Source: Epinephelus fuscoguttatus (lineage: Eukaryota > Chordata > Actinopteri > Perciformes > Serranidae). Taken from it: a DNA stretch of 64,000 nt. Position numbers and translations under genes: made by a program. Below the pieces are notes generated by a model. The model was given only the letters and a program-made list of their open reading frames with translations. It was not told the origin of the DNA and searched no databases. Each line of letters begins with the position of its first letter. Position 1 is the first letter of the stretch. Location of the stretch: positions 29,416,632-29,480,631 of the forward strand of contig NC_064765.1 of the NCBI RefSeq assembly GCF_011397635.1. The letters are read 5' to 3'. Positions 15,928-64,000 of this stretch are shown piece by piece.

Positions 15928-34367
<18,440 letters not shown>

Positions 34368-36415: not shown

Positions 36416-36468
36416 TTAATACTGCTGTTGGCCATCAATCATGTTCACTTTGTCTGAAAGCTCTTCAA
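36416..36468 (-). other. matn3 last exon, coiled-coil end
   Basis: It encodes [17 protein letters not shown] and a TAA stop (36416-36418). The first codon is split, C from the previous exon plus TT. It continues the heptads of the preceding exon without a break. It is preceded by an AC, not AG, intron end. Confidence 0.88.
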
Positions 36469-38721
36469 GTGAACAGGGCAGTCAAGGAAATAGACTTTTA
36501 AAAGTGTATTTGTAATGTTTACCATCATCACACTTTACATTTCTAAAAATGCACCACTACAAATCAACAGACTCAAACTCAAAATACAACAAAATGATTA
36601 AGCTTGTGCAAATGTCCAACATTTCCACAGGCACAAAATGCAAAGCAAACATGTCTTTTACATATTAATCACCATTTGAAAATCGTATATCAAATTCAAA
36701 CTGTGGATCCTTCAAAACCCTCCAAGCAAAAGGATATGTTTTCTGCTCAGCTCCTGAATGGTTGACTGTACTTTTTTCTGGAACACAATCTGAGCTTCAC
36801 ACATGCAGGCATCTTGAGTTATTTCACTTCTCATCTCCTCTGAAAGAACGAGACAAAAATATGGAGAAGGTCAAAGCATGTGTGTGCGGGTGTTCCATGG
36901 TGTTTAGTGCAGCCTCTTCCTAACACTCCATTTGCTGCTTAGGAGGAAAAAAAGCAACACATCCCCAAAAGGCCAATGTCAGTGTTCAATAGGAGAACAT
37001 TTTGGAGCTGATAAAATCAGAAAAAAGTAAGGTGTTGTTTTAAATTGAAACAAAAGCATAACTACATGTTGTTTAAACAATATAGCACAGATCAGATATA
37101 GTAGGATTTTTCTTTTGTGAGTGAGATTAGGAAATATGTAAAATCAATCACTCCAACTAGTTAATCACAACAGAGGAGTGCTCAGTTACAGTGGTCAGGC
37201 GTGGATGGTGTTAAAGAGGACACATGTTAATTGTTTGAGCAATACACTTACATATACATGCGAGACCAATTCACTGAAAAAGACACAATCACAACTGAAA
37301 ACAGGCAAATCAATTGAAACCAATTTCTTGGTTGGTCCTTGACTTGGACCAAGGTTTATGGTGGGCTCCCACCACAACTTCCTTTGCAGTCTCTCATTCA
37401 TTAAACCAGCAGCACAGCACACTTGTACGTTCTGTAAACTGTGCTGTTAATGACGGGATCAGAAGATGTATTGCTTGTTGTTGGACAGCAGCTTTGTTTG
37501 CAGTCAACTGCAGACTTCTCCATAGCTAAAAAATGCAAAAGGAAACAAATGAAAGGGATGATAACTATTAGAATCAAAGTTTATACATTGTATTCCTAAC
37601 TCTCATGATGATCATGGGCAGTGCTAAGCCCAGGATGCAACAACAGAAATGGAAAGAAAATGCCCAAAACATTAAAATTTGTTTTAGCGTGTAGCTTGCT
37701 AGCTTGGAAGAAGTTGTTGTTTCATGCACAGTGCCAAAACAAAGTGTGGTGATAGGTCTGGCTATATGGGATTTTGAAAACTGTAAAGCCTGATTTATGA
37801 TCCTGCGGCGTACCTACGTCGCACCTACGTCGTACCTACGTCGTACCCATAGACATATATACATAGACACCGCATCAAGTGCCTGAGCGCGTCCTCGCCG
37901 GCCGCCATCTTGGATGGGTCTCGCTTCGCCTCCACAGTGCATTCACTTCTATTGAGGAAGGATCTGTATGCACAAGTAAAATAGAATAACTCACTGAATT
38001 TTCAACTGATTTTCACGCAGTTTGGTTTGTTACAAAAGACACACATGTAGTTATGATACAGGATACTTTTGTACATTAAAAATGCGGGATTTCATGCTTT
38101 AATACTTTATGCATATTAGCAACAGCATATTATTTAGGTCACAACACAGTTATTTTATTCACCTCAACCAGAGTGGGATGGATATATATACATATACATA
38201 TATATAGATATATAGATATAGATATAGATATATACACACACATATATATACTGTATAAACACAAGATACACAATACAAAACTTAGTATAGCATATTAATA
38301 AACTTATTAATATATTTTAATAAAGAAAAAGCTTGATTGTTGATTGACTTTATTTCTCACACACATTCTCTTTTATACCCACAGCCATCAGACTTAATAA
38401 TTCTTTGTTAAATAGATGATCTTAAATTTTCTTTTCGGGGATTAATAAAGGTCTTCTTACTCTTATTATACTGACTGCTGTGATCCCTCAAAAGTAGTAA
38501 AAAACATTTTCAATATTTACATAAACACTGAAATTAATTTTGGTATTGGTATTATAACTATGAAAATGGGACTGTGGTCAAGATAATTTGAAAAAAAGAC
38601 AGAAGGATGAGTAGCAGGGGATATTTGCAGCACAGTTGGTGGAAAAGTGAATATGTGCTATACTGTGTCTTGTATTATGTATATGGTGTTTATTCAGTAT
38701 GTTTATACAGTATATAAATAC

Positions 38722-38758
<37 letters not shown>

Positions 38759-41700
38759 CCATCCCACTCTGGGGTTGAGGTGAATAAAATAACTGTGTTG
38801 TGACCTAAATAACATGCTGCTGCAATCTGCAGGATGTATTAAAGCATGAAATCCCGCATTTTTAATGTACGAAAGCATCCTGTATCATAACTACACGTGT
38901 GCCGTTTGTAGCAAACCAAACCGTGTGAAAATCAGTTGAAAATTCAGTGAGTTATTCTATTTTACTTGTGCATACAACTCCTTCCTCAGTAGAAGTGAAT
39001 GCACTGTGGAGGTGAAGCGAGACCCATCCAAGATGGCGGCCGACGAGGACGTCGGCTCCAATAGGCAGTGGTAGTCAATGCGGCACCTATGTATATATGT
39101 TTATGGTCGTACCTACGTCGTACCTACGTTGTTGCCGTGACACCGTTGTGAACCCTTTGAACTTCTCCGTCACTCCATTTCGTCACGGTGCAATTCACCG
39201 CCAGAGCAGTAGGAGGCTGCATTCCTTTCCTGAATGGTTATCATCGTCTCTAGTTGATTCTTTGTTTAGCTTCTGGCTTTTCCGGTCGCAGAGAAATGAA
39301 CGCGGAGCACAGACAGACGGCTCCGTAGGTATCCGTACCGGTATTGAACGTTGAGCATAAATGGGCCTTAATACTACAACATCTACATCGCAACAGAAGA
39401 TGTTTAAAGATGGCGGGGATGGCGCAATCTGGAAGTACGGAACCGGAAATGTGTTGCTACCAAGCAAACCAATCAGCCCTCTCGGTCTGCGCTGGGTCTG
39501 TGTCGCCTGGATGTGTAGTTACAATTTTGGGGAGGTGCACGTCAGGCTACGCCGGGGGCTACGGTGAGCCTTCTGCATAGCCACGTACCCTACGATGCAG
39601 CGACGTCGTTGATTTAACGTAGGACCATAAATCAGGCTTAACACAGGAAGTAAAAGGTAGGCATCAGGTGACAGGGTGTATACCTGTCTACATCCTGTGA
39701 GACAAACTAGGGATCCTAACGTCATTCTATTTCATATAAGCTACACCCCTGAGGTGAATTTGTGGTTCTCCATTGAGATGTTGCCTTCATATGGAAGCAC
39801 AGTTGCCACAGGAAAGGTCTAGCTGTAGCCATTGTGCACCTCCTCAAAATGTGAAATGTACTGATATGAGGCTTTACAACCACGAGATTGTCTACTTCGG
39901 CTACTTTGTGTTTCTTCTTTCCAAGTTCTCTTAAGTTTTTGGTTCTTGGAGATTTTTTTTGATAGGAAGTTGATTTTGGAACAACTAGGACTCTTCTAGA
40001 CTTCAGTGGCAAACCCTAAGCTAGTCAGGTATTGAGTCAACTGAGCAGTGTAAATCAGGGCACACTTTTGGGACCTAGCTATCACAATAAGGTTTTCTAG
40101 GAAGAAGAAGGTATCCATTCTATATTGCTACAATATTGACAGGCTTTAAAGGAAGGAGGACTTTTGCAAATTCTCTACTTGTGGGCTGTACAGCTAGTGG
40201 TGAAGCCTTATCACCATTTAAGGTCTGTGGCAAGATCTTGGGCAAGGTAATTTAGTTAACTGACCTGCTAAGTTACAAGCTCAATTCCTTGTGCCTAGTA
40301 TTGCCTTTTGAGCTAGAATACCAATAGAGCACATTGCATTGTCCAGATTGAGTTTTTCAGCATGGAAGAAGTACAACAATTGCTATAACATCCTACACTT
40401 TAGATTGACCTTGACTGCCTTGGCAGAGAGTGAGCTACCATGAGACCAGGGTAAGAATGGTACCGCTGAATAAATTAAAATTGTGTGTTCATATACAAAA
40501 CAAAAGTAGATGCATAGTGAAGTCACAGTGTCCTTGTTTACAGTCAGGCCAGATTCCACAAAAGACTGGGCAAATTTCGTTGCTACTTTGTATGGGGAAA
40601 TGGTCAAGCCTATATGACACAGAGGACATCTGTACTGGATTGTGTATTACTAGGAAGGCTAAACAGATAGCAATTGGAAAACAGTTTACTCTCACCTGAC
40701 CATCTCACCTTCAGTCGTCTTGCATAGTTTAGGATGGTTTGAGAATGTCTCTTGTTAAGTCAAGCACATGGTCCAACCCATCTTTGATAAAGCCTCTTCA
40801 AGTTTTATAGGCAAAGAGTATTCGAGCAGCCCCCGGGCAACTATTGAAACTTGGTTGCTTGCAGTTCCTTTGAGGACTCCAAACCATGTCCACATATTCC
40901 ACAGCTTTCAGTAAGTTAGTGCTACTCCGGCACACTTTCTTGGTCAGGCCGAGCTTAACACAAGCTGTACAAGACAGCTCACATGCAATAATATAAGAGG
41001 GTAGGGTGACAAATTACTGAGGCTAAAAATGATTCAAAATATGAAAAATGTCTTGAAAGGTTTCAGTACAAAAACATCATTATCTATGTTGAGAAAAAAA
41101 ATCCAGATCCTTACGTGAGCATGTTTTCTGGTCTGCATTTAAAACGTATCCCACTCGACACTTGCAGTTGTATGAGTCAGCGTTGTTGATACATATATGC
41201 TGGCAGTCATGTCCCTGAGCACATGCATTTGAACCTGGAGAGAGAAACATCTAACTGACTTGGACTGAGTAATTACAGGTCAATGAGCTCTTGTTTATCA
41301 TTACCTTAATATTCATGAATTTCCTTGACAAAACACTATATGTGTCTAGCACAATACAAGTGTTAACAGCTCTTGTTGTAGAATTCAAACTGTCTTGAAG
41401 TACTGTACCAATGTTTATTGAAAGGACGAAGTTTCTTACGTGAGCATGTTTTCTGATCCATGTTCAACATGTATCCCACTTGACACTTGCAGATGTAAGA
41501 GTTCCCATTGTTGACACAAATGTGCTGGCAGTCATTTCCTTGGGCACATGCATCTGAATCAGAGCCTGAAAAGAAAAACTCACACCTCAGTGACTTACTC
41601 TTATGACATCAAAAACAATCACTTAGCTTTTTTGCAGAACCTTTAGTCACAGTTCCCTTTAAATGAAGCAGACGCCTCAGCCATGTGACCAATACATTTC

Positions 41701-44700
41701 AACATTCCCAGTCTCTATATCCCCTGCTTATTCACAATGACCTGAAAAAATTGAAAGCAATATTCTCAAGAATCTTCACCGACAATATTCTCAAGAGTTG
41801 ATATGAGGTGTGTCCACAAGACCAACTACCCCAACAGCTTCTATTCTCCAGTTGAGCTGTTGTGCTTTGATTTGATCCAAATGTGCTGCTTTGTTGAACA
41901 TCTAAGATGCTGGATCACACCACAAAGTCATATAATTATTGAAACAAATTAAGTGCTTACGTGAGCATGTTTTCTGGTCTGCATTCAAAACGTATCCAAC
42001 ACGACACTTGCAGATAAACGAGTCATCACTGTTGACACAAATGTGTTGGCAATCGTGTCCCTGAGCACATGTAGCCGATCCTGAAAAGAAACACTTCCAC
42101 ATCTGACTTAACTTAACACCATCAGTCAAGAAGCTCTTGACTTGAGAAACCCCCGATTGGCCAAATTTCCTGTTAACGGTTCTTGAAATCTGCTGTCGTG
42201 TACTTTCTAAACTTGTTCACAATGAGCTAAATGTCATATCAAAACCGTAACCTAGCTCACAAGGAGTGATATGAACTGTGTCTGGCAAAGTACAAAGTGT
42301 TACAAGTGACAATTGGCAATTAGCCAGTCCCCCCCCCCCCCCCCCTTTTTTTTCCACTGCAGAAAATAACATAATAAAATTTTTGGGAAATCTATTACAC
42401 TTTATCAAAGAAGGAATTATATCTTTTAGAAAGGTTCAGGTCCTTACGTGAGCATGTTTTCTGGTCTGCATTCAACACATATCCCATTCGACACTTGCAG
42501 AAAAACGAGTCATCAGTGCTGACACAAATATGTTGGCAGTCATGTCCCTGGGAACAAGTATCTGAATCTGAAATGAAACATCTGATGGGCTCAATTTATA
42601 TCAGTCAACAAGCTTTCAGTAAGTAACTGAACCAATAGTTCGATCAGCTCTAAAAGAAAAATGTTCAGGTTCTTACGTGAACATGTTTTCTTGTCTGGAT
42701 TCAAAATATATCCCACTTGACATTTGCAGATGTACGAATCATTGCTATTTATACAAATGTGCTGGCAATTATGTCCATGGGCACATGGATCAGAGCCTGA
42801 AAAGAGACATGTCAGCATGCAACATGATATCTCATGACATCATTTAAAAAGGGCTTGGACTGTTGGAGTCTCTGCCTGGCCATTGTATCAATTAATGCTA
42901 CATTCTGTCTCCAAAGTGCCTGACATACAAATACCCTGGCAGTCATGTTCCTGGACATGGGTATCCAATTTTAAAAAAGAGACACTCCACAGGTAACTGA
43001 CATGAAATCTAATTGTGAGCGCTTGTGGAGCTTTTATTGAGCTGCTAATTCCTTAACAATTTATCTAAATGATAGCCACATACACCAAACCTCTAAGCGA
43101 ATTACCCTCAGGGTCTGGTAATGGGCCTCTGTCACACAAGTTATGTTAGTCAAGTCTTGACGCATTGTGTCCACCAGTAATGCATTACAGTAAAATTATT
43201 GCTTTTCCCAGTGACGAATAGTGTAACCAATTTGTAATAAAATTTCAGTAAAAAATTTACAAATAACTAATAACTAATTAAAACCTTACTTTTGTTGTCA
43301 ACCCACTAACATTACTAATTTGGAATTCAACAACCAATCAGTCCCTGGATTCATTTTCATAATCGTCATGAATGCATCTCACAAAGCAGCAAGTTAGCTT
43401 GGAATATATTTTGTCGGGAGGGAAGATGACAAGAACATTGTTCTTCAGGTAGTGGTGCTAAGACTCTTTCCACTGCAAAAAACACACCAAACCTCCAGTC
43501 TGAAGCATCTACTTCTACAATACAACAACATGAAGCTCCAGGAAGTACACCTCACCAAAGGTGGACAGCTGCAGGCTACAAGTAACAAAAAACTAATGAA
43601 GCTTTTGGCTGGATATGTGGTGGATAAAATGTTCCTATCTCCATGGCTGACTCTCCATCTGTCAGACAGTTCCTTGGGAAAATACTGGTCACAAGCAACA
43701 GGAGACCTCCAGGTAAAAAAATAATTTACAAGCTATCTAGCCTTAGCTGCGCTTACCAGAGATTACCCTGACATAATCTGAAAATCAGATTTTGAGGGAA
43801 ACTTAGACACAGCACCACAACATGCACATCAAATGTATAGGTAAAATTCAAGGTCTTACGTGAGCATGTTTTCTGGTCTGCATTCAATGCATATCCCTCA
43901 CGACATACGCAAACTTGAGAATCACCATTTTTGACACAAATATGTTGGCAGCCGTGTCCCTGGGTACATGTATCGGAACCTGGAAAGAGACACTTCCACA
44001 GCTAACATCTATAGCAAACTTCCTTTTTTCAATTTTCAAAAATTACAGGGACATAGCCAAATGCTTTATTCTTCTTTCTGCATTTAATCTAGTATATACA
44101 ATAATAACGATGAAGATTATAGTCAGCCACAAACACTGCACTACGACACACACATCAAGTCAAATGATTAAGTTCAAGTTCTTACGTGAGCATGTTTTCT
44201 GGTCTGCATTCAAAATATATCCCATTCGACATATGCAGGTGTATGAGTCATCATTGCTGACACAGATATGTTGGCAGTCATTTCCCTGGGTGCATGAATC
44301 TGAACCTGAAAAGAAACACTCACACTTGTAACTGACTGATTTGAGTTATAGCCATTAGGGAGCACGTCATGACCATGTGCTCCACACCTGTAGGTACATC
44401 AACACTCTACAAGAACTCCAAACACCAAACTTAAAGTATTTTTATGCTCAAGAGAATGCGTTCTCTGATGCACATTCAAGTACAAAACAGACTTAAAGGG
44501 AAAACCACTGCACAGTGACATGCATATAAAATATATGTAAATTCAGGTTCTCACGTGAGCATGTTTTTTGGTCTGCATTCAACACATATCCCTCACGACA
44601 CTTGCAATGGTATGAATCACCATTTTCGATACAAATATGTTGGCAGTCATGTCCCTGATCACATGTATCCAAACCTGAGAAGAAATACTTCCACAGCTAC

Positions 44701-47700
44701 AATTAGACCATCAGGATAGGCCAGTATTAATTTGAAAAAATACAAAGGCTTGGCAAATGCTCAAAGCGTTTTTCTGCCTTTCGCCAAGCACAGACCTCTT
44801 GTAAGAAAAATACAATAAGCCAGTGATGCTGCACTAAGACTTGCATATTATAAGGTTCAAGTTCTTACGTGAACATGTTTTTTGGTCTGCATTTAACTTA
44901 TATCCCACTTGACACTTGCAGATGTACGAGTCATCATTGTTTTCACAAATGTGCTGGCAATTATGTCCATGGGCACATGGATCAGAATCTGAAATGAGAC
45001 ACATCCACATGTAACTGACATGTAATGACATCAGTCAAGGAGAGCCTGGACTGTTGGAGCCCTTGTCTGGCCATTGTTCCTTTAACTGTTTATGTTAACT
45101 GTGGTGACATGCTCTTTTTTCTGTAGCAGTCAGTCACGGAGCTATTCAGAGTCCGACAACTGACTCTAAAAGTGCTAAGAGCAATCTGCAATATTAGTCA
45201 CAAGAGGCACGAAGAAAATCTGTCTGTACAGTACCTCTATTACCTCACAATTACAGTATGTTTTAATTCAGAAAAATCACAAGTCCAATTTGAATGTGCC
45301 ATAGGAAGACCTGGTAGTTTCTTTGTTTAATCAAGCACTAAAGTAATGCTTGTCATAAACTAGTGACACTGGTCTAAGGCATGCATATTAAATCTTGCAA
45401 AATATATTTTGGTGCAACCTGGTATCACCACCAGGGTGTCAAAAATCGTTGCTTGGTCAGTGGCCCTCTGCATCAGATATGGACACTCAATGCACCGTTT
45501 AGCATCTGAGATGCAACAGGCTTTCAACCAACTCCAATATTAACCCATCCATATCATGATTAGATGTTCAGAGCAACAGATGTAGTATAAAAAGGGAGAA
45601 ATTACACTAAGGGCAGATGGGATTGGAGGTGGAGGAGTCCAGCAAGCACATGACTTTGAAGTCGGTGTTTATGTCAGATGAATAAAAAGTCAGTGTTGAG
45701 TTAATTTAGTTGTTAGTCACTTGTTTGTTACGTGAGGCTCATGTGACTAAAGATCTTTCCCTAACAGTGACTAAGAAGTTTTGTTGCCCAGTGCTAACTA
45801 CTGATCCCCTATGTCATGATAAACTGCAAAAGACTGCCCTCTCCCCTGTACTTGCCCAAGCACCAAAATATGACAAGCACGGATGACATCACATTGTCTA
45901 GTTTGTCTTTACAACCCAGCTGATACTTGCAGATGTAGATACAAAAAAACCTTTCACATCACCTATAATGACAAAGGTGCTTACATGAGCACATTTTCTG
46001 ATCAGCATTCAATACATATCCCAAAGGTCACTTGCAAATATACAAATCATTAGCATTCTCAACTATGTTGGCAGTCATGTCTCTGGGCACATGTAGCTGA
46101 ATCTGAAAACTGACACTCCCTCATGTAACTCCTTGAAACAAGCTATATCAGTCAAGCACATCAAAGCTGAGACTAATGAACCATCAGTTGTTTTTTTTTA
46201 AAATGCAGCAGGCAGTGCGATTTGCTCAAACCCTCTGTGCATCAGTCCCAGTCTACTAATTGTATGCTTTTTCAAGTAATAAATAGATCTTCTGCTGCAC
46301 ACTCAGAACAGTCCAAAGTAAAGTGCCTAGGCAGCTCTGGCTGCTTCATCAGGAAGCATAAGAGGTTTTGTGGGAAATCTGTGCCAAGAAACAAATATAA
46401 AGTCTATACCTGAAAAGTCCAGGTCCTTACGTGAGCACGTTTTCTGGTCTGCATTCAAAACGTATCCCGTTCGACAATTGCAGATGTACGAACCATCAGT
46501 GCTGACACAAATATGCTGGCAGTCATGTCCCTGGGAACATGTAGCTGAACCTGAAAACAGACACTCCCTCATGTAACACACTCAATTAAATTACAGTCAA
46601 GCACATCATAAATGACAATTTAATGAGCAATCAAATCCTTTAAAATGTATAGTCATTTGCTCAAACTCTCTGTGCACCAATTCCAGTCTCCTGATTCTAT
46701 GCTTTTTAAAATCAATTTAGTGTAAACTGCTGCACACTCAGAACAGTCCAAAGTAAGGAGCCTTAGCAGCTCTTGCTGGTTCATCAAGAAACGTAAGTCT
46801 ATTTGTGGGAATTCTGAGCCAAGAAACAAAGAAAGTCTACCTGAAAAGTCCAGGTTCTTAAGTGAGCAGGTTTTTTGGTCTGCATTCAAAACATATCCCA
46901 TTCGACAACTGCAGATGTACGAATCATCGGTGCTGACACAAATATGCTGGCAGTCATGTCCCTGAGAACATGAATCCAAACCTGAAAAGAAAAAACTTCC
47001 ACATCTGGCACAAAGCCCTTATGGTAGAGTCTTTGATAGGCAAATATTATTTTTACAGTTCATATAAACTAACGCATTTCCTGTCAAGCTAAGAGATGCC
47101 CATCGTACAAACTGCCTCACTAGCTCTTGCTATACTATGGAGAATACAAAGAAACTGGCAGTCATGCAAAACACAGGAAACAATCGATGAAAATTTTGGT
47201 TCTTACTTGTGCATGTTTTCTGGTCTGCATTCAACACATATCCATCATGACACATGCAACGGTGTGAATCATCATTTTTTACACAAATATGTTGGCAGTC
47301 ATGTCCTTCGGCACATGTATCCGAACCTGGAAAAAAACACCTCTACAACTTACCAACTTAGTCTAAATACATTCAGCAATAAATCTTGGCTGAGATGTTA
47401 ATTAACCATCATTTCTTTCAAAATGGATTAGTCATGGACATTTGCTTGACCTCTGCGCATCCATCCCAGTTTTCTAATTCAAAGCTTTTTCAAATCAGTC
47501 CAATATAAACTGCTGCACACTCAGAACAGTCCAAAGTAAAGTGCCTTAGCAGCTCTTGCTGCTTCATCAAGTAACATAAGTAGATTTGTGGGAAATCTGA
47601 GCCAAGAAACAAAGAAAGTCTACCTGAAAAGTCCGGGTTCTTACGTGAGCATGTTTTCTGATCTGCGTTCAACACATATCCCATTCGACATTTGCAGATG

Positions 47701-50700
47701 TACGAATCATCAGTGCTGACACAAATATGTTGGCAGTCATGTCCTTCGCCACATTTATCCGAACCTGGGAAGAAACACTTCCACAACTTACCAACTTAGT
47801 CTAAAGACATTCAGCAAAGACGTTATAGCTGAGACCGTTAATTAACTATCAATTCTTTCAAAATAGATTAGTCATGGACATTTGCTTGACTTTTGTGCAT
47901 CAATTCCAGTTTTCTAAGTCAATGCTTTTTCAGCCCAATATAAACTGCTGCACACTCAGAACCTTCCAAAGTAAAGTGCATTAGCAGCTCTTGCTGCTTC
48001 GTCAAGTAACAAAGGTAGATTTGTGGGAAATCTGAGCCAAGAAACAAAATTAAATCTACCTGAAAAGTCCGGGTTCTTACGTGAGCATGTTTTCCTATCT
48101 GCGTTCAACACATATCCCATTCGACATTTGCAGATGTACGAATCGTCAGTGCTGACACAAATATGTTGGCAGTCATGTCCTTCGCCACATTTATCCGAAC
48201 CTGGGAAGAAACACTTCCACAACTTACCAACTTAGTCTAAAGACATTCAGCAAAGACGTTATAGCTGAGACCGTTAATTAACTATCAATTCTTTCAAAAT
48301 AGATTAGTCATGGACATTTGCTTGACTTTTGTGCATCAATTCCAGTTTTCTAAGTCAATGCTTTTTCAGCCCAATATAAACTACTGCACACTCAGAACCT
48401 TCCAAAGTAAAGTGCCTTAGCAGCTCTTGCTGCTTCATCAAGTAACAAAGGTAGATTTGTGGGAAATCTGAGCCAAGAAACAAAATTAAGTCTACCTGAA
48501 AAGTCCAGGTTCTTACGTGAACATGTTTTCTGATCTGCGTTCAACACATATCCCATTCGACATTTGCAGATGTACGAATCATCAGTGCTGACACAAATAT
48601 GCTGGCAGTCATGTCCTTCGCCACATTTATCCGAACCTGAAAACAGACACTCCCTCATGTAACACACTTAATGAGCAATCAAGTCCTTTAAAATGTACAG
48701 CCATTTGCTCAAACTCTCTGTGCAACAATCCCAGTCTCCCGATTCAATGCTTTTTCCAAGTCAATTCAATATAAACTACTGCACACTCAGAACAGTGCAA
48801 AGTAAGGAGCCTTAGCAGCTCTTGCTGGTTCATCAAAAAAACGAGCAAGATCTGTCAGAAATCTGTGTCAAAAAACAAAGAAAGTCTACCTGAAATGTCC
48901 AGGTTCTTACGCGAGCATGTTTTCTGGTCTGCATTCAACACATATCCCATTTGACATTTGCAGATATACGAATCATCAGTGCTGACACAAATATGTTGGC
49001 AGTCATGTCCCTGGGAACATGAATCCAAACCTGAAAAGAAAAAAAAAACTCCTACATCTGACGTGAAGCCTTTATTGTGGAACTTTGCAAACAAAACTGT
49101 AGGGATTCTTCAGAACTTCAACCAATGAACTCTACTTTTACTCAAGTACCAACAATAATTAACTTTTGGGAAAACCTTTAACACTGTGCTAAGAAATGGA
49201 AATGAAATCTCTTGGTAAGCATTCTTACGTGAGCATGTTTTCTTGTCTGCATTCAACACATATCCCTCGTGGCACACACATATGTTAGAATTGCCATTTT
49301 TGACACAAATATGCTGGCAGTTGTGTCCCTGGTCACATGTATCCAAATCTGAAAAGAAACATGTCTACATGTAACTGACTGTAGCTGAGTATAACAACCA
49401 TTTGCTGTGCACTACTCAAGGACACCACGCAGCAATAGTCACAAAAGCTGATCTGTTTGTGACCCTGTAGAAATTCAAGCTGAACTAATTAATCAATTCC
49501 CACTTTTAAGAACCCAAACCCAAGAAGTTACCACCTAAATTGAAGCAGAAGCCAGTGTGGAAGTGCCTTAAGGTGCAGCTCCCTTGATGGCCCCCAATGG
49601 TGGCTCCAAGAACAATTCAACAATATCAAAGGACTTGGAAAACCACAACCTTCCTGTTGTGACACTAAATGACCGCACCAACCTACATGTCAATGTATTT
49701 CTACAGCTTTTGTTTCGTCAAGTAACAAAACAAGACTTGTGGGAAATCTGTGCAAGGAAACAAGCATAAACTCTACCTGAAATTTCCAGGTCCTTATGTG
49801 AGCATGTTTTCTGGTCTGCATTCAAAACATATCCCATACGACATTTGCAGATGTACGAATCATCAGTGCTGACACAAATATGTTGGCAATCGTGTCCCTG
49901 GGAACATGAATCCGAACCTGGAAAGATAAAACTGCCACATCTGACACGAAGCCCTTATTGTGGAACTCATTGTAGAGCCTTCGATTGGCAGTAATTATTT
50001 TTATAGTTTAGATAAACTAAAGCCTATCCTGTTCAGTCAAGCTAAGTAATGCCCACAACTGCCTCGCTAGCTCTTGCTAAGTACAACAGAATACTTTTTG
50101 GTTATGCAAAATGCAGGAACTGGTCAAACAACAACAAATCTAAAAAAAAATATTGCGGTTCTTACGTGAGCATGTTTTCTGGTCTGCATTCAACACATAT
50201 CCCATTCGACACTTGCAGACAAACGAGTCATCAGTGCTGACACAAATATGTTGGCAGTCATGTCCCTGGGAACAAGTATCTGAACCTGAAAAGAAACATC
50301 TGATGGGCTCAATTTACATCAATCTAAAATGCCCTTACAATATGCTTGAACCTACGGTGGATCATTATAGTCAAGCACTTCATTGATGGACTCTGAAGCA
50401 AACTTCCATCAACTCTAAAAAAATATCCAGGTTCTTCCGTGAACATGTTTTCTTGTCTGGATTCAAAATATAGCCAACCCGACATCTGCAGATGTACGAA
50501 TCATCACTATTTATACAAATGTGCTGGCAATCATGTCCATGGGCACATGGATCAGAGCCTGAAAAGAGACATGTCCACATGTGATATGACATCTAATGAC
50601 ATAATACAAGCAGGACTTGGACTGTTGGAGCCTCTGTCTGGCCATTGGTACAATTGATTCCACTCTCTGTCTTCCAAGAGTCTGACTCATTCAGACTAAC

Positions 50701-53700
50701 ACAAATATCCTGGACACAGGTTTCCAATTTGAAAAGAGATGCCCCACAGGTAACTGACATCTAATTACACCTGTCAAGGGGCTCTTGTGTATCAGCTCCA
50801 GTGTCCCAACTTAATGGTTATTTTCAGGTCACTATTGACCAAACTATTACAATTACCTACAAGAGCTGATATGTATAGTGACATTTTGGGCTTGTACTGG
50901 CAAACACTAATACCACAGAAAGGCCATTGTCTTCATTGCCCTTGACATTTGCAGGTATAGCAGTCATCATTGCTGGCACAGATAAAGTATGTTGGCAGTC
51001 ATGTCCTTTGGAATAAGCCCTGAGTCAGCTCTATTTCATACACGTACCTATCACCCTTCGTTTGACTGCTCAACTTTGCAGATCTATGATGAGCTAATGG
51101 GGGTTGTTTCTATAAAGCCAGTGCCCTCCATAAGACCCTAATTAAGTCTTTACTGACCACTCTGTGTGTCAGAACAGATGGCTGTGAAATTGAAGTTTAG
51201 TTGTTGACTTTCCAGGATATGTGCTTTACACAATTGCATATAGCTTAATTTGGATTTTAGGGCTCTAAATTACATAACTGAAAGTTGGCAGCAAGCTACA
51301 AACCTCATTCGAGGTTCAAAACACCCAAGTGCAATTGTTGTGGCTGACCTACTGAACACTACTATTCACTCAAGCCTGTGACTTGGAGAGAGAATCTGTT
51401 TGTCCTTTTTGTAGAGCCACTAAGTGGCCATTACTACTTTTACAATTTGTGCCTCTCATCGGTCCAGGCCTTCTTCATGTTCTGCTCACTTCATTTGTGC
51501 TAAATAGTGTCTGTCCTAATCTATCTGGGGCAACCCAAAACATTGGTAACAAGAGATGGTATGCAGTGTGCCCACAGCACAACATGCCTAACTAAGTGAT
51601 GTCCAAAAGGAGCATTAAAGCTTACGTGTTTCAGTCCAAGGTTCCAAATATTTTAAGTTAGACATTTCTACTTAGAATACATAAAAGGTTTTTCCCATCC
51701 AATCCCAAATTGATGTTCAAAATATAACTTTTAGCCATGATCAACCTTTTTCAGCTTTAGTTTTAAGACCGTGAATCATGCAAAAACACAACAACATACT
51801 TGTGACACTGAGACATTGGACAAAAACATTAAGACAAAGATAAAGATTCTTACGTGAGCATGTTTTCTTGTCCGGATTCAAGACATAGCCATTGCGACAC
51901 TTGCAGTTGTATGAGTTGCCACTGTTGACACAAATGTGCTGGCAATTATGTCCCTGAGCACATGCATCCAAACCTGAAAAGAAACACTCCATTGTCTGAT
52001 TGGCTTACGCCTAGGGAAATCATTCATTTTGTATTATATTTCTGTGTTAGTAAATTGTAAGTATGTGTTGGTTAGTTGTGCAATTATGTTATTCTATGTA
52101 GCCACATGCAGATTAGTTTGCTTGATCTCTGTGCTTCAACTATAGTATGTTATAGTAAATTCATTTTGTTGATTCAAATCATGTTATTTGGGAAGAAAGG
52201 AAAAGATGATTGGCAACTTTCAGATGATGCACTGGCATTGAATTTAAGACACCTGAATAATGATCCATCTTAATTTTCCAACAGATTATTCCATGCAGTT
52301 CAGACCATGCAAACACAAAGTCTAAGGCAACACTCTGTTCTTATCATTGCATGTCTTTGGTTGTGACGTCACTGTTGTGGATGGACAGAAGTTGGTCACA
52401 GTGAAACACAGTGGTTGGTTGAAGTCACTCCAGAGGTTCAAGCTGTCAATCAAAAACAAGTTTCTGAGTTTGTGTTGGCTAGATGTCAGTCATAAAATAA
52501 GTTCAACACCTGGGAGAAGCTTGCATGAATAGCATGGATAACCTTGCAGTTATCTTGCTAGTTTGGGTGGTACCAAAGTTTGAAAGAGAAATTAAAATGT
52601 GACTTTTTTTAAATCCATTTTAAATTGTGGACAGTTATCCAAAAACACTGAGCCAGTCTCTCACAATAACCTTTGCGGTACCGTTCAATAATTTTTTTGC
52701 ATTCCCCCTGATGACCACAGCTGGTGCTGCATGCTTAGCAGAGCGTTGAGCTATAGCTGACATTGTAGCTGTGGATATGGTTATTTCTAGGGCTATGGTT
52801 ACAACTGTTTCAATGGTTATTGTCATGGTGTGTCTACAGAGGAGGCATTCTGGCCATGTTTTTCAGTCATCCAACTCAGGTGTGACTGGCAGAACAGATA
52901 CACCTCCTGTTTTAACAAATCCAGCTGTCTGCACAGTGTTATGGATATGGTTATGGCTGTAGCTGCACTGTAGCTACTCTTTACAGGTCCTAATATATTC
53001 ACATTAGCAGAGAAAGAATTGTAAAGCCAGACTCTCAGAATTTGGACACTGTGCTATTAGTTATGACAAATGTGTTACCAATATACAGTTCAAGAACATC
53101 TTCAGACAGCCTTTCTCTATGGATCAGAGGAAATGCACAATGTTTTGTGAGATAACACACCATATTGGGACTGCAAAAGTATTGTGAGGGAACACAAGAC
53201 TTATAGCAAGATAACACAATTATTGTGAGAGAATGCAGAAAAATGAGCCCATTTTGAAAACCTCCTAGTTCTTATTTTCCAAGTTCTGATATCACCCAAA
53301 TGTATCATAGCAATGAGCAGTTGAGCTGGCATTCCTGTAGCCAAAAAGTATTAAGTATTACATTAGAAATATTTTGTTTAACAGAGAATATGTAAACACT
53401 TTACATTTTTTTGTTTTGTTTGTTGGACATGTCTCTTTTGTTGATTTTCACTCTATCAATGTTTGTGCTTTGTTTTTAGGAACAGTTTGACATTTTTCTT
53501 CTTCTTGCGATCATGTCGTTGCTACGAGGTTGCCCGGCAACTGGCAGAGACACCAGAAAGTCATGCACCCAACCAAGTCTCATACGTAATCCCCTTTGAA
53601 ACTACAACCTGCTGTTTTTCCAATTATTCATTTTTAAACAAATTAAATAACTTCAATCACTTCAGAAAGAGCTAGGTTAATCGTTTCCCCCTGTTATCCC

Positions 53701-56700
53701 CCTGCTAAGCTAAGCTAACCGGATAATGACATCAGATTCATATTGAACAGCCGGGTATAAGATAGGTATCGAAGTTCTCATCGAACTTTGCAAGACAACA
53801 CTTATTTTTAAGCACATTTAAAGATAACGTAACATTTGAAATTAGTTTTTCTTAAAGCTCTCTTAATATGTAAAAGTTTTCACTCAAATAGATTTTAGCT
53901 AACTTTAGCGCAAGCTAATTTAGTTTTTGCCATGAAGGATGAGTGGCCGTTAATGTTCTGGCACAGACTGCAAATTGTGGAAACTGGGTAGCTTAGCACG
54001 CCTTCAGGTAATCGAGTGGGGCACGCGGCATGGGGAGCAAGATGCAATGCAGAATGCAAAAAGCAGCGCGGTCCATGTGAAACGTATAGGCAGCACCATG
54101 TTAGGTTTCTACCATTTTAAAGAGTTCAGGGTTGCAGAATTCGATCTGAATTGGCAGATCAACCAATGATCAGAGGTTTGTCCTTTCTTTAAGTTGGTTA
54201 GTACATGACTTTGTGTTCATGTTGACTCCATTAACTACACTTATTATCACCATCTGGCAACAGTAAGTGAACAACTTTTGTGGGAAATCCAAACACAACA
54301 AGCAACAGTAAATCCCTCCTTACCTTGCCCTTGTTGTTAAGACTAAAGAAGAGGACGAGTGACTTTAGAATGGAGATTCCCTTTATGGTGCTGCCCATAT
54401 GATCACAGATGAAATTTAAAGGACGGATCTGACATACCGTTGTTTCCTTTATCGTCATTTTCATTACTTATTCCATTAGGCCTACCGTCTTTTCTGCCCT
54501 CTGGGCCTAGTCCATAATCATCAATTCCTCCATCTAATGGAACATCCGCACTCCCATGATCATCATCCTTACCACACAAGGTTTCCCTAAATTTGGAAGT
54601 GAGCTTCTCTATGACACCATAGGTCTCCACATAGAAGACATGGTCATCATGTGGTTGGCTGGCCATGAGGCGGAGAGACATCATATCGGCTCTGTCAACT
54701 CCCACTGCGTAGATCTCGATCCCAGATGCCCGTGCTGTGGCTGATACATCCTCTACCTTGTCCTGGGGCCTCCCATCTGTCACTATGATGGCTACTTTGG
54801 CAATGTTCTTGGAACTACCTCGGGCCCCTGCCTCTGCTGTGAAGGCTTTCTCCATGGCAGTCTTGATGGCCATGCCCGTCATGGTGCCTGAAGCAAGGGG
54901 CTCAACACGGGCCAGTGCCTGCTTCAAGGCAGACTTGGCAAAATACGTCTTGAGGAGAAACTCAATCTGCACTGTGCTGGCATAATTGACAAGGCCGACT
55001 CGTGTGGCGTCTGAGCCAATTTCCAAGCTGTCCACCATATCTTGCAGGAACTCTTTGGCCTTTTCAAACTCAGCAGGGCGTACACTGCGGGAGCTGTCTA
55101 TGATGAAAACCAGGTCGATAGGACGATTCCTGCAGTTAGATCTTGTTGCTGTTAAAAACAGAAAAGGATGTTTTGATTGGATTATAAGTGTATTTCCAAT
55201 GTATTTAAAGTAACCCAGTCGGCAGGGAAAATGTTGGCATTGTACATTTCTGCAAAAAGATCATGTTATGGCTTAAAATATCTTGTCTGGGGAGCAAAAT
55301 CCCTGCTGAAAAAGCAGCAATGTCACTTACAAACAATAACTTTTTGTGGTATTATCCTGACAGGAAATGCAGTGATGTCTCGGTGAAAAAAACAATCGCT
55401 TTTCTTGGCCCAGAAAAACAGCGAAGGGTCCCTGAAAAACACCCAGGTTTGTTGGCTGAAAAGCCACTGAAAACAAAGCAATGACTTGCTAAAATAAAAC
55501 CAGGATTGTTGTTTGTTGGTCTCAAACAGCAGCCTGCAGTGGTCTGGAGTTTGGCAGGCATCTCGTGTATGTGACACACTCCACCTCCCAATGACAATGT
55601 CAGCCCATACCCTAAGTCATTATAGAAACATTGATATGATACGTAAAAAATGTACAAATGTAACATATTTGTGATTTGCAGAAACATACAATGACAACAT
55701 TTTCTTCTAGCGACTGGGCTGATCGAAGAAACAGTACAAGAGCGCTTCCATTTTGTGGTAGTAGAAATCTCAGTCTTCTCTCTGCATCTCTGCACACAAA
55801 TAGGCTACTGTACACACACTTGCCAAAGCACACAAAGTTTGAAACATAGTCTGTCTCTTTGGCTAATTGACTTAAAGATATTTTTAAATTAATTGAGAAA
55901 AAAGCTGTATCCTTCAAATTACATTTGATTGCTTCAATTTTAGGAGACCAGAGATAATTACTAGAATACCATGACAGCCAACATCTCACTTGTAAATACT
56001 TTATATTTTCCATCAGGTCATAGGCAAACAAGTGAACAGTCCTTTTGTTATTTGCATGGCCCTTCAAAAGGTATAATAATGTATCACATGGCAGCACACT
56101 AATCCACAGTGGTGAAGAAAGTATTCAGATCTTTTACTTGAGTCAAAGCAGCAGTACAACATTTCAAAATGACTGTTAAATGTTGAATGTTAAAAGTAAA
56201 AGTCCTGCATTCAAATCTGTATTTCAAGTATATACAAGTAGAAAACTATCAGCATCAAAACACTTACAGTACTAAAAGTAGATGTACTCACGATGCAGGA
56301 TAGCTCATTTTAGATTCATATTATATTACTGGATTATAATTATTGATGCATTCATATGTTCATCACTTTAATGTTGCAGGTGGTAAATGTGGAGCTCATT
56401 TTAATTACCTTACATACTACTGTACCTTAACCTATAATAAGAGGTCATAATTTATGAGTTGATTTATATTTTGTATTAATAATCCCAATCTGCAGTAATT
56501 TAAGTAATTTAAGTTACATAAATTTTGTGGAGTAAAAGTATAAAGTAGGATAAAATGGAAATACTTATATATAATTAATACAGTAACCAAATTTTGGCCA
56601 GGAACTTAAGATATTTGTGGCTGCTCCATGTGTTCCAAATGATTTCATTTTCAATATCAATGGACTTTTATCCTCTTCTGTGTAAAATATTATGTTTTTA

Positions 56701-58326
56701 GCTTAATAAATGACAGATAAACCTTATTAGACAAATATCTGGGAGGCATGTATGCCACAAAATCTTGCCAGTTATGCCTGTCCACAACTAAATATCTGTC
56801 ATTTGTGAAGTGAATAAGAACATGTTAGTTATGGCTAAAGCTAAGTACCTGCTTCAGCTCTGAAGGATGCAGGAGAGTTGCTCGAGTCTCGTGCAGGCTG
56901 CCAGGATGCAAACGGTGCAGCTTTGTCTTGCAGCTGTGAGAGCGGCTGGCTTTTCTTTGGCGGCTGCTGATGGGAGGACTGATAGCGATGAAACCTGGAA
57001 TTAGTGCCACCAGCTTTTCCAAGGGAGGGGAAAAGACAGAGGGGAGAACATTAGAGCAGTACTTTGGTTTGACTACAGCAAAATGAGATGCAACATGACG
57101 GGCGTGCGTAATGATTATTGGCTAAATAATAGCTTTTCAATGTGAATATCACAGAAGGGAAAAGAGTATGCATTACATACTTTTTGGGCTGTTACATTTG
57201 CTGTACACTTTTGGTACACTGACATCCTAATTATGACTGTGGAGAATAATAAGGTCATTTTAACACAGTGCCATGTGACTCTCATGTATTAACATTACAT
57301 TGGAGTCTCAAACTGCCTCAGTGTTAAACTGTTGCATCACCAAAATCCTCAAAGGTTCTAAACATCTGTGATTTTGTGCTTGACTTTCTTAATGAAATCA
57401 ATCTTTTAATTAATCTTTGCTCAGTTATAACATTAATTAAGTTTAACATTTCATTATCATTTATATTGGTGTGTTTATTGATGAATATTTTATATGTTTG
57501 TCAAAATGGCAACAAATCGTGAATATTTTTTTGTGTATTACAAAAAGGACAAGAACATTAAGCCATTTCTGGCTACTTGGATAGGAAAACTTGTACTAAT
57601 TTTGGAAATAGGATAGTAATTGGTTTAACATTTTTAAACCCATATGGCTAGAAGAGCATGTGTTGTTGAACAGCCCTCTGGGTTTTAAAGGGATTGCAAG
57701 TTATTTAAACTTAGTCCAGTGACTGGAATGTATTATACATGAGGGGTATACATAGGGCTACACTGTGCACACAAAATCATACAGGTTACTGGTATTATAA
57801 ATAGTAGAAGCAGAACATTTATCAATTATAACAGACATAGTCAGTTTCTTTTAAAGTTTTGTTCAAATAATAATAAAAAAATTTCAAACCATAACAAATG
57901 TATGGAAAACATTTGAGAGGGTTATTGCATGCGTGCAAAGCAGGTGGGTGGACATTGATATTGAACATTTCGGACACATAACATCAACCAACCTCTATTG
58001 CCAGCAATCCGCCTGTCCTGCACCAGGTTGTTGTTGGCACCTGGTTGGGCACCCTGCTGTTGCTGGTAGCCTTGGGATGTGTCACCACCCAGCTGGACCT
58101 CTTGAAAAGTTTCAGCACTTGGTACTTCATCAGAGGTGTGTTCAATAGATTTGATATCCTCAAAGCTCTGGTAAACCCTTGGAGGGACTTGCGAGGATAC
58201 TCGTGGGATCAAAGGACTAATTGAGTGGATCTGCCGGTTGCGTGACCCAAACTGTGGGAAAGTTCCCAGAGTTCCCGGTGCCAGGATGCCAATGAAACAG
58301 AGCAGTCCCCACGTTAATGAGGTCAT
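36416..58326 (-). CDS. matn3: Matrilin-3-like protein with expanded EGF array
   Basis: Matrilins are secreted, coiled-coil-linked adaptor proteins of cartilage matrix. Read 5' to 3': signal peptide ([21 protein letters not shown]); a low-complexity N-terminal region (to about residue 166); one VWA domain (about 178-365) with MIDAS residues DSSRS at 184-188 and the TDGRP strand; an acidic, Gly/Asp/Asn-rich linker; 21 EGF exons; then a coiled coil with the ACMCEA cysteine pair used for interchain bonds. If all 21 EGF exons are used at their homologous ends the coding length is 3891 nt, an open frame of 1296 residues, against about 486 residues and four EGFs in human matrilin-3. Three EGF exons lack a GT donor, so the mature mRNA may be shorter or altered. 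The matn3 call rests on the neighbouring wdr35 and the single VWA. A paralogue letter (a/b) cannot be assigned. Confidence 0.92.
36469..36737 (-). other. AT-AC (U12-type) intron in matn3 coiled coil
   Basis: The 5' splice site reads ATATCCTTTT right after ...AGCAGAAAAC, a perfect U12-type AT-AC donor. The 3' end has TTCCTTGAC (36481-36489) as branch site, then TGCCCTGTTCAC, with the branch A about 13 nt from the AC end. Splicing here joins the coiled coil in frame, while reading through stops within a few codons. The matrilin-1 (cartilage matrix protein) gene is a textbook case of an AT-AC intron at this place. Confidence 0.92.
36738..36839 (-). other. matn3 first coiled-coil exon
   Basis: 102 nt. 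It encodes the linker [10 protein letters not shown], the cysteine pair ACMCEA and heptads [17 protein letters not shown]. The acceptor is TTTCAG. It lies 4.3 kb from the last EGF exon. Confidence 0.9.
37786..39639. mobile_element. MITE with nested 350-bp palindrome in matn3 intron
   Basis: The outer ends 37786-37804 and 39621-39639 are inverted repeats (AAGCCTGATTTATGATCCT, one mismatch), followed by 'acctacgtcgtacctacg' repeats at both sides. Inside sits a second element with arms of about 350 bp (about 37848-38195 and 38742-39106). No transposase frame is seen. The interior (38196-38741) is AT-rich with TA and TG runs (38722-38758). Confidence 0.8.
39640..41114. other. matn3 intron between EGF array and coiled coil, unassigned
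   Basis: No exon with splice support is seen. Minus-strand open frames at 39722-40012 and 40383-40695 have an ordinary amino-acid mix but no motif I recognise. They could be remnants of a mobile-element gene; I do not assign them. Confidence 0.4.
42329..42353 (+). repeat. Homopolymer C run followed by T run
   Basis: Seventeen C then eight T, in a matn3 intron. It is a likely place for sequencing length errors. Confidence 0.9.
42925..42975 (-). pseudogene. Decayed EGF exon relic
   Basis: On the minus strand [13 protein letters not shown] can be read, matching the start of an EGF exon ([13 protein letters not shown]) with the first cysteine lost and three bases missing. The second half and the donor are gone. 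It lies upstream of EGF exon 42677-42796, the same place as the relic at 50692-50740 has relative to exon 50439-50558. Confidence 0.65.
45985..46102 (-). pseudogene. Frameshifted EGF exon (dead exon)
   Basis: It has an intact acceptor (GTTTTCAG) and donor (GTAAGC) and clear EGF similarity over its full length, but is 118 nt instead of 120. The two-base loss lies just after the third-cysteine region (CAACATAGTTGAG) and brings stop codons in frame. If it were spliced in, it would truncate the protein before the coiled coil. Confidence 0.8.
46862..46981 (-). other. EGF exon with TT instead of GT donor
   Basis: The exon ends ...ACCTGCTCAC and the intron starts TTAAGAAC where its sisters have GTAAGAAC (position 46861). 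A usable GTAGAC lies 21 nt downstream (intron start 46840) and keeps phase 1, adding seven residues (LKNLDFS) after the sixth cysteine. The EGF frame itself is intact. Confidence 0.8.
47645..48636 (-). repeat. Three-copy 436-bp tandem repeat of EGF exon plus intron
   Basis: EGF exons start at 47645, 48081 and 48517, exactly 436 bp apart. The introns between them are nearly identical (I count about seven differences in some 300 bp between the last two). All three read [13 protein letters not shown]. This is the youngest duplication in the array. Confidence 0.92.
49798..49917 (-). other. EGF exon with AT instead of GT donor
   Basis: The intron starts ATAAGG where sisters have GTAAG (position 49797). 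The change is the C-to-T type expected at a CpG on the plus strand. A GTAGAG donor 21 nt downstream (intron start 49776) keeps phase 1 and would add seven residues (HKDLEIS). Confidence 0.8.
50439..50558 (-). other. EGF exon with GG instead of GT donor
   Basis: The intron starts GGAAGAAC where sister exon 42677-42796 has GTAAGAAC (position 50437). No in-phase donor is seen in the next 40 nt, so this exon is probably skipped. Skipping is frame-neutral because both borders are phase 1. Confidence 0.75.
50692..50740 (-). pseudogene. Decayed EGF exon relic
   Basis: The minus strand has the acceptor-like CTCTTTTCAAATTGG followed by a shortened EGF-like stretch with loss of the QH core and early breaks. 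It resembles the relic at 42925-42975. Confidence 0.5.
50935..51012 (-). pseudogene. Decayed EGF exon relic
   Basis: Minus-strand GHDCQH is readable at the start ('ggacatgactgccaacata'). An insertion then shifts the frame, and the rest ('gccagcaatgatgactgcta', 'acctgcaaatgtcaagggc') is recognisable only at DNA level. No clear donor. Confidence 0.6.
51974..54437. other. matn3 intron between VWA exon and first EGF exon
   Basis: A 2.5-kb intron. It includes a simple purine/pyrimidine-patterned stretch (52750-52975) in which 'gtagctgtggatatggttat' and 'ggatatggttatggctgtag' resemble each other. At 53665-53760 is a fragment with the 'gctaagctaagctaacc' motif of the MITE family seen at 7700-8860. 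No further exon is recognised. Confidence 0.5.
54438..55148 (-). other. matn3 VWA-domain exon
   Basis: 711 nt. It encodes the whole VWA domain: [14 protein letters not shown] (MIDAS), the LASGTMTG loop threonine, [14 protein letters not shown] and the closing ETLCGK. About 42 residues of acidic/Gly-rich linker follow. Acceptor TTAACAG, donor GTATGT. Borders are phase 1. Confidence 0.93.
55149..56848. other. matn3 intron 2, no extra exon seen
   Basis: A 1.7-kb intron. Long minus-strand open frames at 55352-55795 and 55612-56097 read as hydrophobic and cysteine-scattered sequence without a domain or good splice sites. I treat them as chance. Confidence 0.5.
56849..57013 (-). other. matn3 exon 2, disordered Gln/Ser/Pro-rich segment
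   Basis: 165 nt, phase 1-1. It encodes 55 residues rich in Q, S, P and basic residues (for example [20 protein letters not shown]). Acceptor TGGAAAAG, donor GTACTT. No fold is recognised. Mammalian matrilin-3 has only a short basic stretch before the VWA. Proline/serine-rich additions have been described in some zebrafish matrilins. Confidence 0.7.
57014..57992. other. matn3 intron 1
   Basis: About 1 kb, AT-rich. No feature is seen beyond the splice ends. Confidence 0.6.
57993..58326 (-). other. matn3 exon 1, signal peptide and N-terminal region
   Basis: The start at 58326 is chosen because it opens a classical signal peptide and lies 78 nt past a TATA box. The in-frame ATG at 58494 is upstream of the TATA box. 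After the signal the exon encodes about 90 low-complexity residues, with a Q-rich run ([11 protein letters not shown]). The donor GAG|GTTGGT is weak but gives the phase needed for exon 2. Confidence 0.8.
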
Positions 58327-63573: not shown

Positions 63574-64000
63574 GTGAGTGCTTTATTATGAATCTCAAGC
63601 AACAGTTTCTATCTATCTATCTATCTGTCTGTCTATCATGGTTGCATGACTTTAACGTCGCCACCAAAACCAGGTTGTGGAGTTATGTTCAGCGCGGTTT
63701 GATGTGATGATGCTCTGTAGTCTCATCTAGACACTTGTTAGCAAATGTCTCAAGACACGGAAAGGCTTCCAAATTCACAAGTAGCGTATTTACTGGTGTA
63801 CGTCTTGTAACAAAGTGTGAAAGTCTCTTAAACTGATGTTAACCACAGACCTTATTTCAGGCATCTAACCAAAAACCCATTCAAAAAACCCATTGACTTT
63901 AAGACAAGGGAACAGGAAGTGCTAAAATGCTAACTCATTTCCAGGTTTTAGGACTCATTACTGGGGCACTCTGTTTGGGACTCTTTGTACATATTTTGCA
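63574..64000 (+). other. Start of GPCR intron 5, no exon resolved
   Basis: It contains the tetranucleotide run and repeat-like sequence. The next exon (rest of the cysteine-rich domain plus seven helices) is not seen. Confidence 0.55.
63609..63637 (+). repeat. CTAT/CTGT tetranucleotide microsatellite
   Basis: Seven tandem units just after exon 5 of the class C GPCR. Confidence 0.9.

Follow-up and report, generated by a model that had tools for sequence, protein, structure and literature searches.

The window considered in this study is a stretch of 64,000 nt from the genome of Epinephelus fuscoguttatus (contig NC_064765.1; C14:29416632-29480631 of a 26-contig, 1.05-Gb assembly). Its minus strand contains, at 41,115-51,973, a series of 21 open EGF frames situated between a single VWA exon and the exons for a coiled coil. 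The gene to which these frames belong is well supported, on sequence criteria, as matrilin-3. It is probable that its EGF region has been enlarged by tandem duplication since the gene split from a sister gene on C11, and that the enlarged region acts as an extended spacer.

Both strands of the entire 64 kb were scanned with a six-cysteine EGF pattern, and 21 matches were obtained, all of which fall on the minus strand, within 41,119-51,962. With the outer AG taken as start and the donor position as end, 20 of the frames are 120 nt in length and the remaining one (EGF20) is 126 nt. An AG following a pyrimidine tract (the latter judged by eye) is found, in phase 1, at all 21 frames. The pattern scan and the frame lengths thus confirm the number, sizes, phase and position of the EGF frames as given in an earlier note on this DNA. 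The linkers between EGFs are five residues long, or seven before EGF20. Every one of the 21 EGFs, and the EGF of the C11 gene as well, has the same six cysteines and shares 11 further invariant residues. EGF1, the only EGF scanned against Pfam, matched EGF-type families. The acidic pattern before the first cysteine that marks calcium-binding EGFs was not seen in the 20 linkers listed. Patterns for Asx-hydroxylation and N-glycosylation fit seven of the 21 EGFs and one EGF, respectively, and no conclusion was drawn from them.

Neither the EGF pattern scan nor nhmmer revealed further open EGF exons in the window beyond the span given above. Judged from nhmmer and translation, dead EGF exons are clear at two sites, 46,120-45,972 and 51,017-50,940, and represent an addition to the array of the earlier note. 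No RNA family matched the window at the gathering score. The features of the window are collected in Table 1.

Table 1. Exons of the matrilin gene, EGF remnants and downstream genes, in the order in which they are read on the minus strand of the window
Feature	Position	Strand	Remarks
First coding exon	57993..58326	-	ATG, hydrophobic signal-like start (by eye), long N-terminal stretch; phase-1 donor GAG/gttggt
VWA exon	54573..55148	-	phase 1-1; Pfam VWA 6.8e-50
EGF exon 1	51854..51973	-	120 nt
Dead, partial EGF exon	50940..51017	-	nhmmer 44.5 bits, 4.1e-13; translation
Marginal EGF trace	50,742-50,674	-	8 bits; may be chance
EGF exon 2	50439..50558	-	120 nt; donor GG; no GT in frame ahead of a stop; not expected to be spliced in frame
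EGF exon 3	50166..50285	-	120 nt; 114 nt from inner AG
EGF exon 4	49798..49917	-	120 nt; donor AT; GT in frame at +21 nt
EGF exon 5	49229..49348	-	
EGF exon 6	48911..49030	-	
EGF exon 7	48517..48636	-	within 436-nt tandem unit
EGF exon 8	48081..48200	-	within 436-nt tandem unit
EGF exon 9	47645..47764	-	within 436-nt tandem unit
EGF exon 10	47207..47326	-	
EGF exon 11	46862..46981	-	donor TT; in-frame GT 21 nt downstream
EGF exon 12	46431..46550	-	
Dead EGF exon	45972..46120	-	nhmmer 106.2 bits, 4.5e-32; one stop per half and a frameshift between (translation)
EGF exon 13	44869..44988	-	
EGF exon 14	44555..44674	-	donor GTGAGA
EGF exon 15	44186..44305	-	
EGF exon 16	43860..43979	-	
Weak EGF exon remnant	42925..42987	-	nhmmer 23.7 bits, 1e-6
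EGF exon 17	42677..42796	-	in block matching EGF exons 2-3
EGF exon 18	42448..42567	-	118/120 identical to EGF exon 3
EGF exon 19	41961..42080	-	
EGF exon 20	41440..41565	-	126 nt
EGF exon 21	41115..41234	-	
Coiled-coil exon 1	36738..36839	-	ends at U12-type donor C/ATATCCTTTT; alone over Pfam cut-off
Coiled-coil exon 2	36416..36468	-	after TTCCTTGAC...AC; stop codon at its end
WDR35 exons	25808..31275 (tested: 30817-31275, 25808-26122)	-	PDB WDR35 1.3e-44; Pfam Beta-prop_WDR35_2nd 1.1e-29
KCNS3-like potassium channel subunit	9848..11149	-	Pfam Ion_trans, BTB_2

The earlier note had regarded all 21 frames as intact exons. This could not be sustained, as a GT donor is present in 18 of the 21, and the figure of 21 is a count of open frames rather than of spliceable exons. 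Because the donors of EGF2, EGF4 and EGF11 are not GT, canonical splicing would permit 20 EGFs at most, or 18 if the alternative sites 21 nt downstream are disregarded; 18-20 EGFs is therefore the realistic maximum predicted for the protein. On a simple donor weight matrix, scores of 2.5-3.8 were obtained for the 18 GT donors, save that of EGF6 (0.6). For EGF4 and EGF11, the nearest remaining in-frame donors, at +21 nt, score 1.2 and 1.0, as compared with 2.8 for the usual donor, while EGF2 is without an in-frame phase-1 GT ahead of a stop. A second in-frame GT exactly 21 nt past the usual donor position was observed in EGF exons 4, 6, 7, 8, 9, 11 and 12 (46400-49800, minus strand), and a second AG is situated inside the acceptor of five EGF exons, 6 nt in (12 nt in EGF20).

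Joined in order, the 25 exons form one open frame of 1,196, 1,225 or 1,241 aa, depending on the VWA donor used, or of 1,076, 1,105 or 1,121 aa if EGF2, EGF4 and EGF11 are omitted. A protein of about 1.3 thousand residues had been proposed; the long single frame was borne out, and the computed length is slightly shorter. The computed mass of the precursor with all 21 EGFs is 132 kDa, and the monomer would be expected at about 115-135 kDa, as against an estimated 50 kDa or so with four EGFs. The accompanying proposal, of an EGF region that exceeds the usual length several times over, holds if the exons are used, with the same reservation as to what the figure of 21 counts. Use of one or another of the three in-frame phase-1 donors of the VWA exon (54573, 54486 and 54438, minus strand) would lengthen the protein by 0, 29 or 45 residues, which form an acidic linker. 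The only significant tblastn match to VWA over the whole window was this exon, which argues that there is no second VWA. A search of PDB with the VWA yielded mainly collagen VI and integrins among the matches listed.

The two coiled-coil exons, when joined, matched Matrilin_ccoil in Pfam at 6.8e-16, and the coiled coil matched cartilage matrix protein (1aq5) in PDB at 3.6e-4. The AT-AC intron of matrilins sits in the coiled coil. In the window gene the coiled coil is split by such an intron, with a C/ATATCCTTTT donor, a TTCCTTGAC element and an AC end, and both ends fit the U12-type consensus. A ATATCCTT donor occurs at the equivalent place in all five of the matrilin genes of this genome. To judge from its title, a paper by Muratoglu and colleagues in 2000 reportedly dealt with an AT-AC intron in matrilin genes.

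It might be asked whether the gene is a decaying pseudogene, a suggestion to which the three non-GT donors and the weak donor of the first exon lend some weight. The single open frame of the 25 joined exons is at odds with this, as are the two well-formed ends of the U12-type intron and the divergence of the VWA from that of the C11 gene, for which the non-synonymous divergence (dN) is 0.15 and the synonymous divergence (dS) 1.65. Decay was rejected on the grounds of the open frame and the constraint, and is considered very improbable.

Divergence was also determined among the 21 EGF copies. Of the 210 pairs, 209 had a defined dS; the mean dN was 0.148 and the mean dS 0.781, dN was lower than dS in 208 of those 209 pairs, and the pooled dN/dS was 0.174 (35-codon core, 210 pairs). 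By this measure, purifying selection has acted on the copies, which have diverged from one another. When EGF2, EGF4 and EGF11, which lack a GT donor, were compared with their nearest copies, the ratio was 0.12 on 22 changes; for the other 18 it was 0.25. Since the donor-less exons show no excess of amino acid change, either the donor losses would be recent or the exons are still used. Under random substitution at the observed counts, the chance that all 21 copies would retain six cysteines and no stop is approximately 10^-26.5 if the copies are independent, a figure that overstates the case because they share ancestry.

These values bear on the possibility that the array is mainly a splicing reservoir, from which a handful of the 21 exons is drawn for each transcript, the usual protein being near normal length. 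All of the exons are phase 1-1, so that any subset keeps the frame, and three donors have been lost while the joined frame is unbroken. The seven in-frame GTs at +21 and the five second AGs within acceptors would also suit such a system. On the other hand, the scores of the GT donors, EGF6 excepted, do not favour it, and the low dN/dS, together with the lack of relaxation in the three donor-less exons, argues that most of the copies have been translated. A reservoir of this kind is accordingly regarded as unlikely.

Identification of the gene as matrilin-3, which the earlier note had put forward, is well supported by the single VWA, the Matrilin_ccoil match, the AT-AC intron and the neighbouring genes. 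WDR35 and a potassium channel gene, presumably KCNS3-like (a name that rests in part on synteny), lie downstream of the matrilin gene on the same strand. By eye, WDR35 appears to extend from approximately 34.2 kb to below 18 kb, and WDR35 matches in the genome were confined to C14. In human, mouse and chicken alike, MATN3 lies in a conserved neighbourhood with WDR35 and, at a greater distance, KCNS3 (PMC1464127). The window gene thus resembles mammalian MATN3 in its single VWA, EGF modules, C-terminal coiled coil and WDR35/KCNS3 neighbourhood. It differs in that matrilin-3 has four EGF modules in mammals (PMC4849044, PMC2427018), in agreement with the number quoted in the earlier note, whereas the window gene has 21 open frames, 18 of them with a GT donor.

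Two matrilin-3 genes are present in zebrafish (matrilin-3a and -3b) and in Tetraodon, with WDR35 next to one of the two Tetraodon genes (PMC1464127). The present genome likewise contains two, one of them beside WDR35, and the window gene is most likely one of two matrilin-3 genes of this teleost type. The second is situated at C11:20954136-20957360. Its VWA is 77.7% identical to that of the window gene and its coiled coil, at 54.2 bits, is over the Pfam cut-off; it also shares the U12-type donor and has a KCNS3-like paralogue approximately 40 kb away. It is unlike the window gene in having a single EGF exon, and no further EGF-exon match above noise was found in 30 kb. The sister matrilin-3 genes therefore differ in EGF number, 1 versus 21.

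EGF numbers for the other matrilin genes were obtained by tblastn in fetched regions and are lower bounds for distant genes: at least one in a matn1-like gene on C17 (VWA-EGF-VWA in plan), at least six in a matn4-like gene on C1 and at least seven in a matn2-like gene on C8. These labels derive from domain plan and not from a tree; the C1 and C8 genes also have KCNS-like genes approximately 200 and 70 kb away, respectively. Matrilin-2, named as the largest matrilin, has ten EGFs (PMC6271824). It is comparable to the window gene in its many EGF modules, as is the matn2-like gene of this genome, but it has two VWA domains and about half or fewer of the EGFs. Approximately 20 EGF modules would be roughly twice the number in the largest matrilin of the papers cited. 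No matrilin with more than ten EGFs was found in the literature, in a partial survey that did not extend to the main paper on the zebrafish matrilins.

A codon tree was constructed from 32 EGFs, with three partial EGFs of the C1 and C8 genes and the C17 EGF left out. In it the 21 EGFs of the window cluster together, separate from the C11 EGF (ultrafast bootstrap 90), and the branches inside this cluster are often weak (28-70 for several). Self-alignment revealed block copies within the array: exons 6-9 on 7-10, with a period of 436 nt; exons 11-12 on 6-8; exons 2-3 on 17-18 (79%); and exons 13-14 on 15-16 (72%). These block duplications and the dead exons support the proposal, made in the earlier note, that copy number has changed by unequal crossing-over. 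EGF3 and EGF18 are identical at 118 of 120 positions, with zero synonymous differences, while in the introns preceding them 82 of the 109 aligned bases are the same and a further 44 columns are gapped. The identity of the two exons is probably the result of short-tract conversion; constraint at synonymous sites is possible as well. It is most likely, from these sequences, that the array reflects birth and death of frame-neutral exons, lengthening the spacer of a cartilage adaptor.

Closely similar tandem copies also raise the question of an artefact, in which the array would have been built from false copies during assembly. Units 7-9 constitute a 436-nt tandem repeat that is 92% matching, and the 120-nt upstream flanks of EGF8 and EGF9 are identical. 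Most exon pairs, however, are 71-93% identical, and block copies of 200 nt or more differ by approximately 14-32%, which false joins could not produce; moreover, the assembly in which the window lies consists of 26 contigs. For the array as a whole an artefact was rejected, the copies being too diverged, and of the alternatives discussed here it is the most remote.

Several of the observations weigh against the interpretation favoured here, namely an array enlarged by duplication that serves as a spacer. Three of the 21 donors are not GT, and that of the first coding exon is weak (1.1 on the weight matrix). The signal of purifying selection averages over the shared history of the copies and over conversion. 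Units 7-9 resemble one another so closely that the assembly may contain the wrong number of them. Modelling of a single EGF gave a structure of moderate confidence (pLDDT 65.7). The best-scoring PDB match to this model, the EGF module of C1r, had an E value of 0.05; none of 201 matches reached 0.001 or lower. The top PDB rows for this model are proteins known for EGF modules.

According to that interpretation, the EGF region would have grown, after the gene parted from its C11 sister, as single phase 1-1 exons and also blocks of exons were duplicated in tandem, and copy number would drift through unequal crossing-over and conversion. An exon that lost its donor or gained a stop would drop out without a frameshift, so that selection would act on the folding of each module that is kept and would probably set only loose bounds on the exact number of EGFs. 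Loose constraint on EGF number is suggested, too, by the single EGF of the sister gene and by the presence of dead exons and of exons with lost donors in the array. The same gene model can be given a different meaning, in which extra modules are cheap, accumulate almost neutrally and confer no adaptive rod length. The dead exons and lost donors, which show ongoing loss, are in keeping with this, as is the sister gene, whose one EGF implies that length is not conserved between the two matrilin-3 genes; furthermore, matrilin assembly is reported to be unaffected by EGF number (PMC2427018). The constraint that persists on individual modules is the principal argument to the contrary. Near-neutral accumulation is a serious possibility, to which somewhat less than an even chance is given.

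Two further loci and an adjoining gene deserve mention. In the genome, nine matches to Matrilin_ccoil were found at E values up to 1; six were over the cut-off, and five of these lie in recognisable matrilin genes. The sixth, at C22:25701883-25701981, is interrupted by two TGA stops, and the 3 kb examined around it yielded neither a VWA nor an EGF match; it is possibly a matrilin relic. In the matn2-like gene (C8:36032922-36036545), EGFs 2-6 (five of the seven) have F in place of the third EGF cysteine and a common new cysteine two residues before the fourth (CEQEF...DSCVCKC); the pattern is that of a relocated cysteine spread through five tandem copies. Within the window, exons of a family C receptor adjoin matrilin-3 (61034-63704, plus strand), with an ANF_receptor match of 8e-36 and a nine-cysteine-domain match just below the cut-off; we take it to be probably of the olfactory V2R/OlfC type.

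As an extended spacer, the long EGF string would hold the VWA heads far from the coiled-coil hub. A single EGF is approximately 3 nm long; on that figure, 18-20 modules would span some 55-60 nm, as compared with approximately 12 nm for four. What the sequence itself shows is the structure of the gene with its open frames, its synteny, the duplicated blocks, the purifying selection, the missing donors and the dead exons; the splicing of particular exons, the length of the rod, expression and any effect on cartilage are matters that we infer from the DNA. In matrilins, the VWA is the part that binds matrix ligands, and oligomers form through the coiled coil (PMC6271824); a role in BMP-2 binding has been proposed for the EGFs and coiled coil together (PMC4849044).

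A vertebrate matrilin with approximately 20 EGFs, whose sister gene has one, might represent an evolutionary length dial, by which the reach of the adaptor changes between fish species or individuals; this is offered as a tentative idea, more doubtful than not. Equally tentative is the means by which such a dial could work, that is, gain and loss of frame-neutral EGF exons through unequal crossing-over and conversion, with the binding head and the oligomerising tail left untouched. If the long form is made, the sister genes, with one and about twenty EGFs and otherwise alike in plan, would constitute a natural experiment on the matrilin EGF spacer. The array also presents a clear case of birth and death at the level of exons: its 11 kb bring together block duplications, exons that have probably been converted, missing donors and dead exons. 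The gene is, moreover, a skeletal one in which copy number may vary, and its human form has been linked to chondrodysplasia (PMC7013758).

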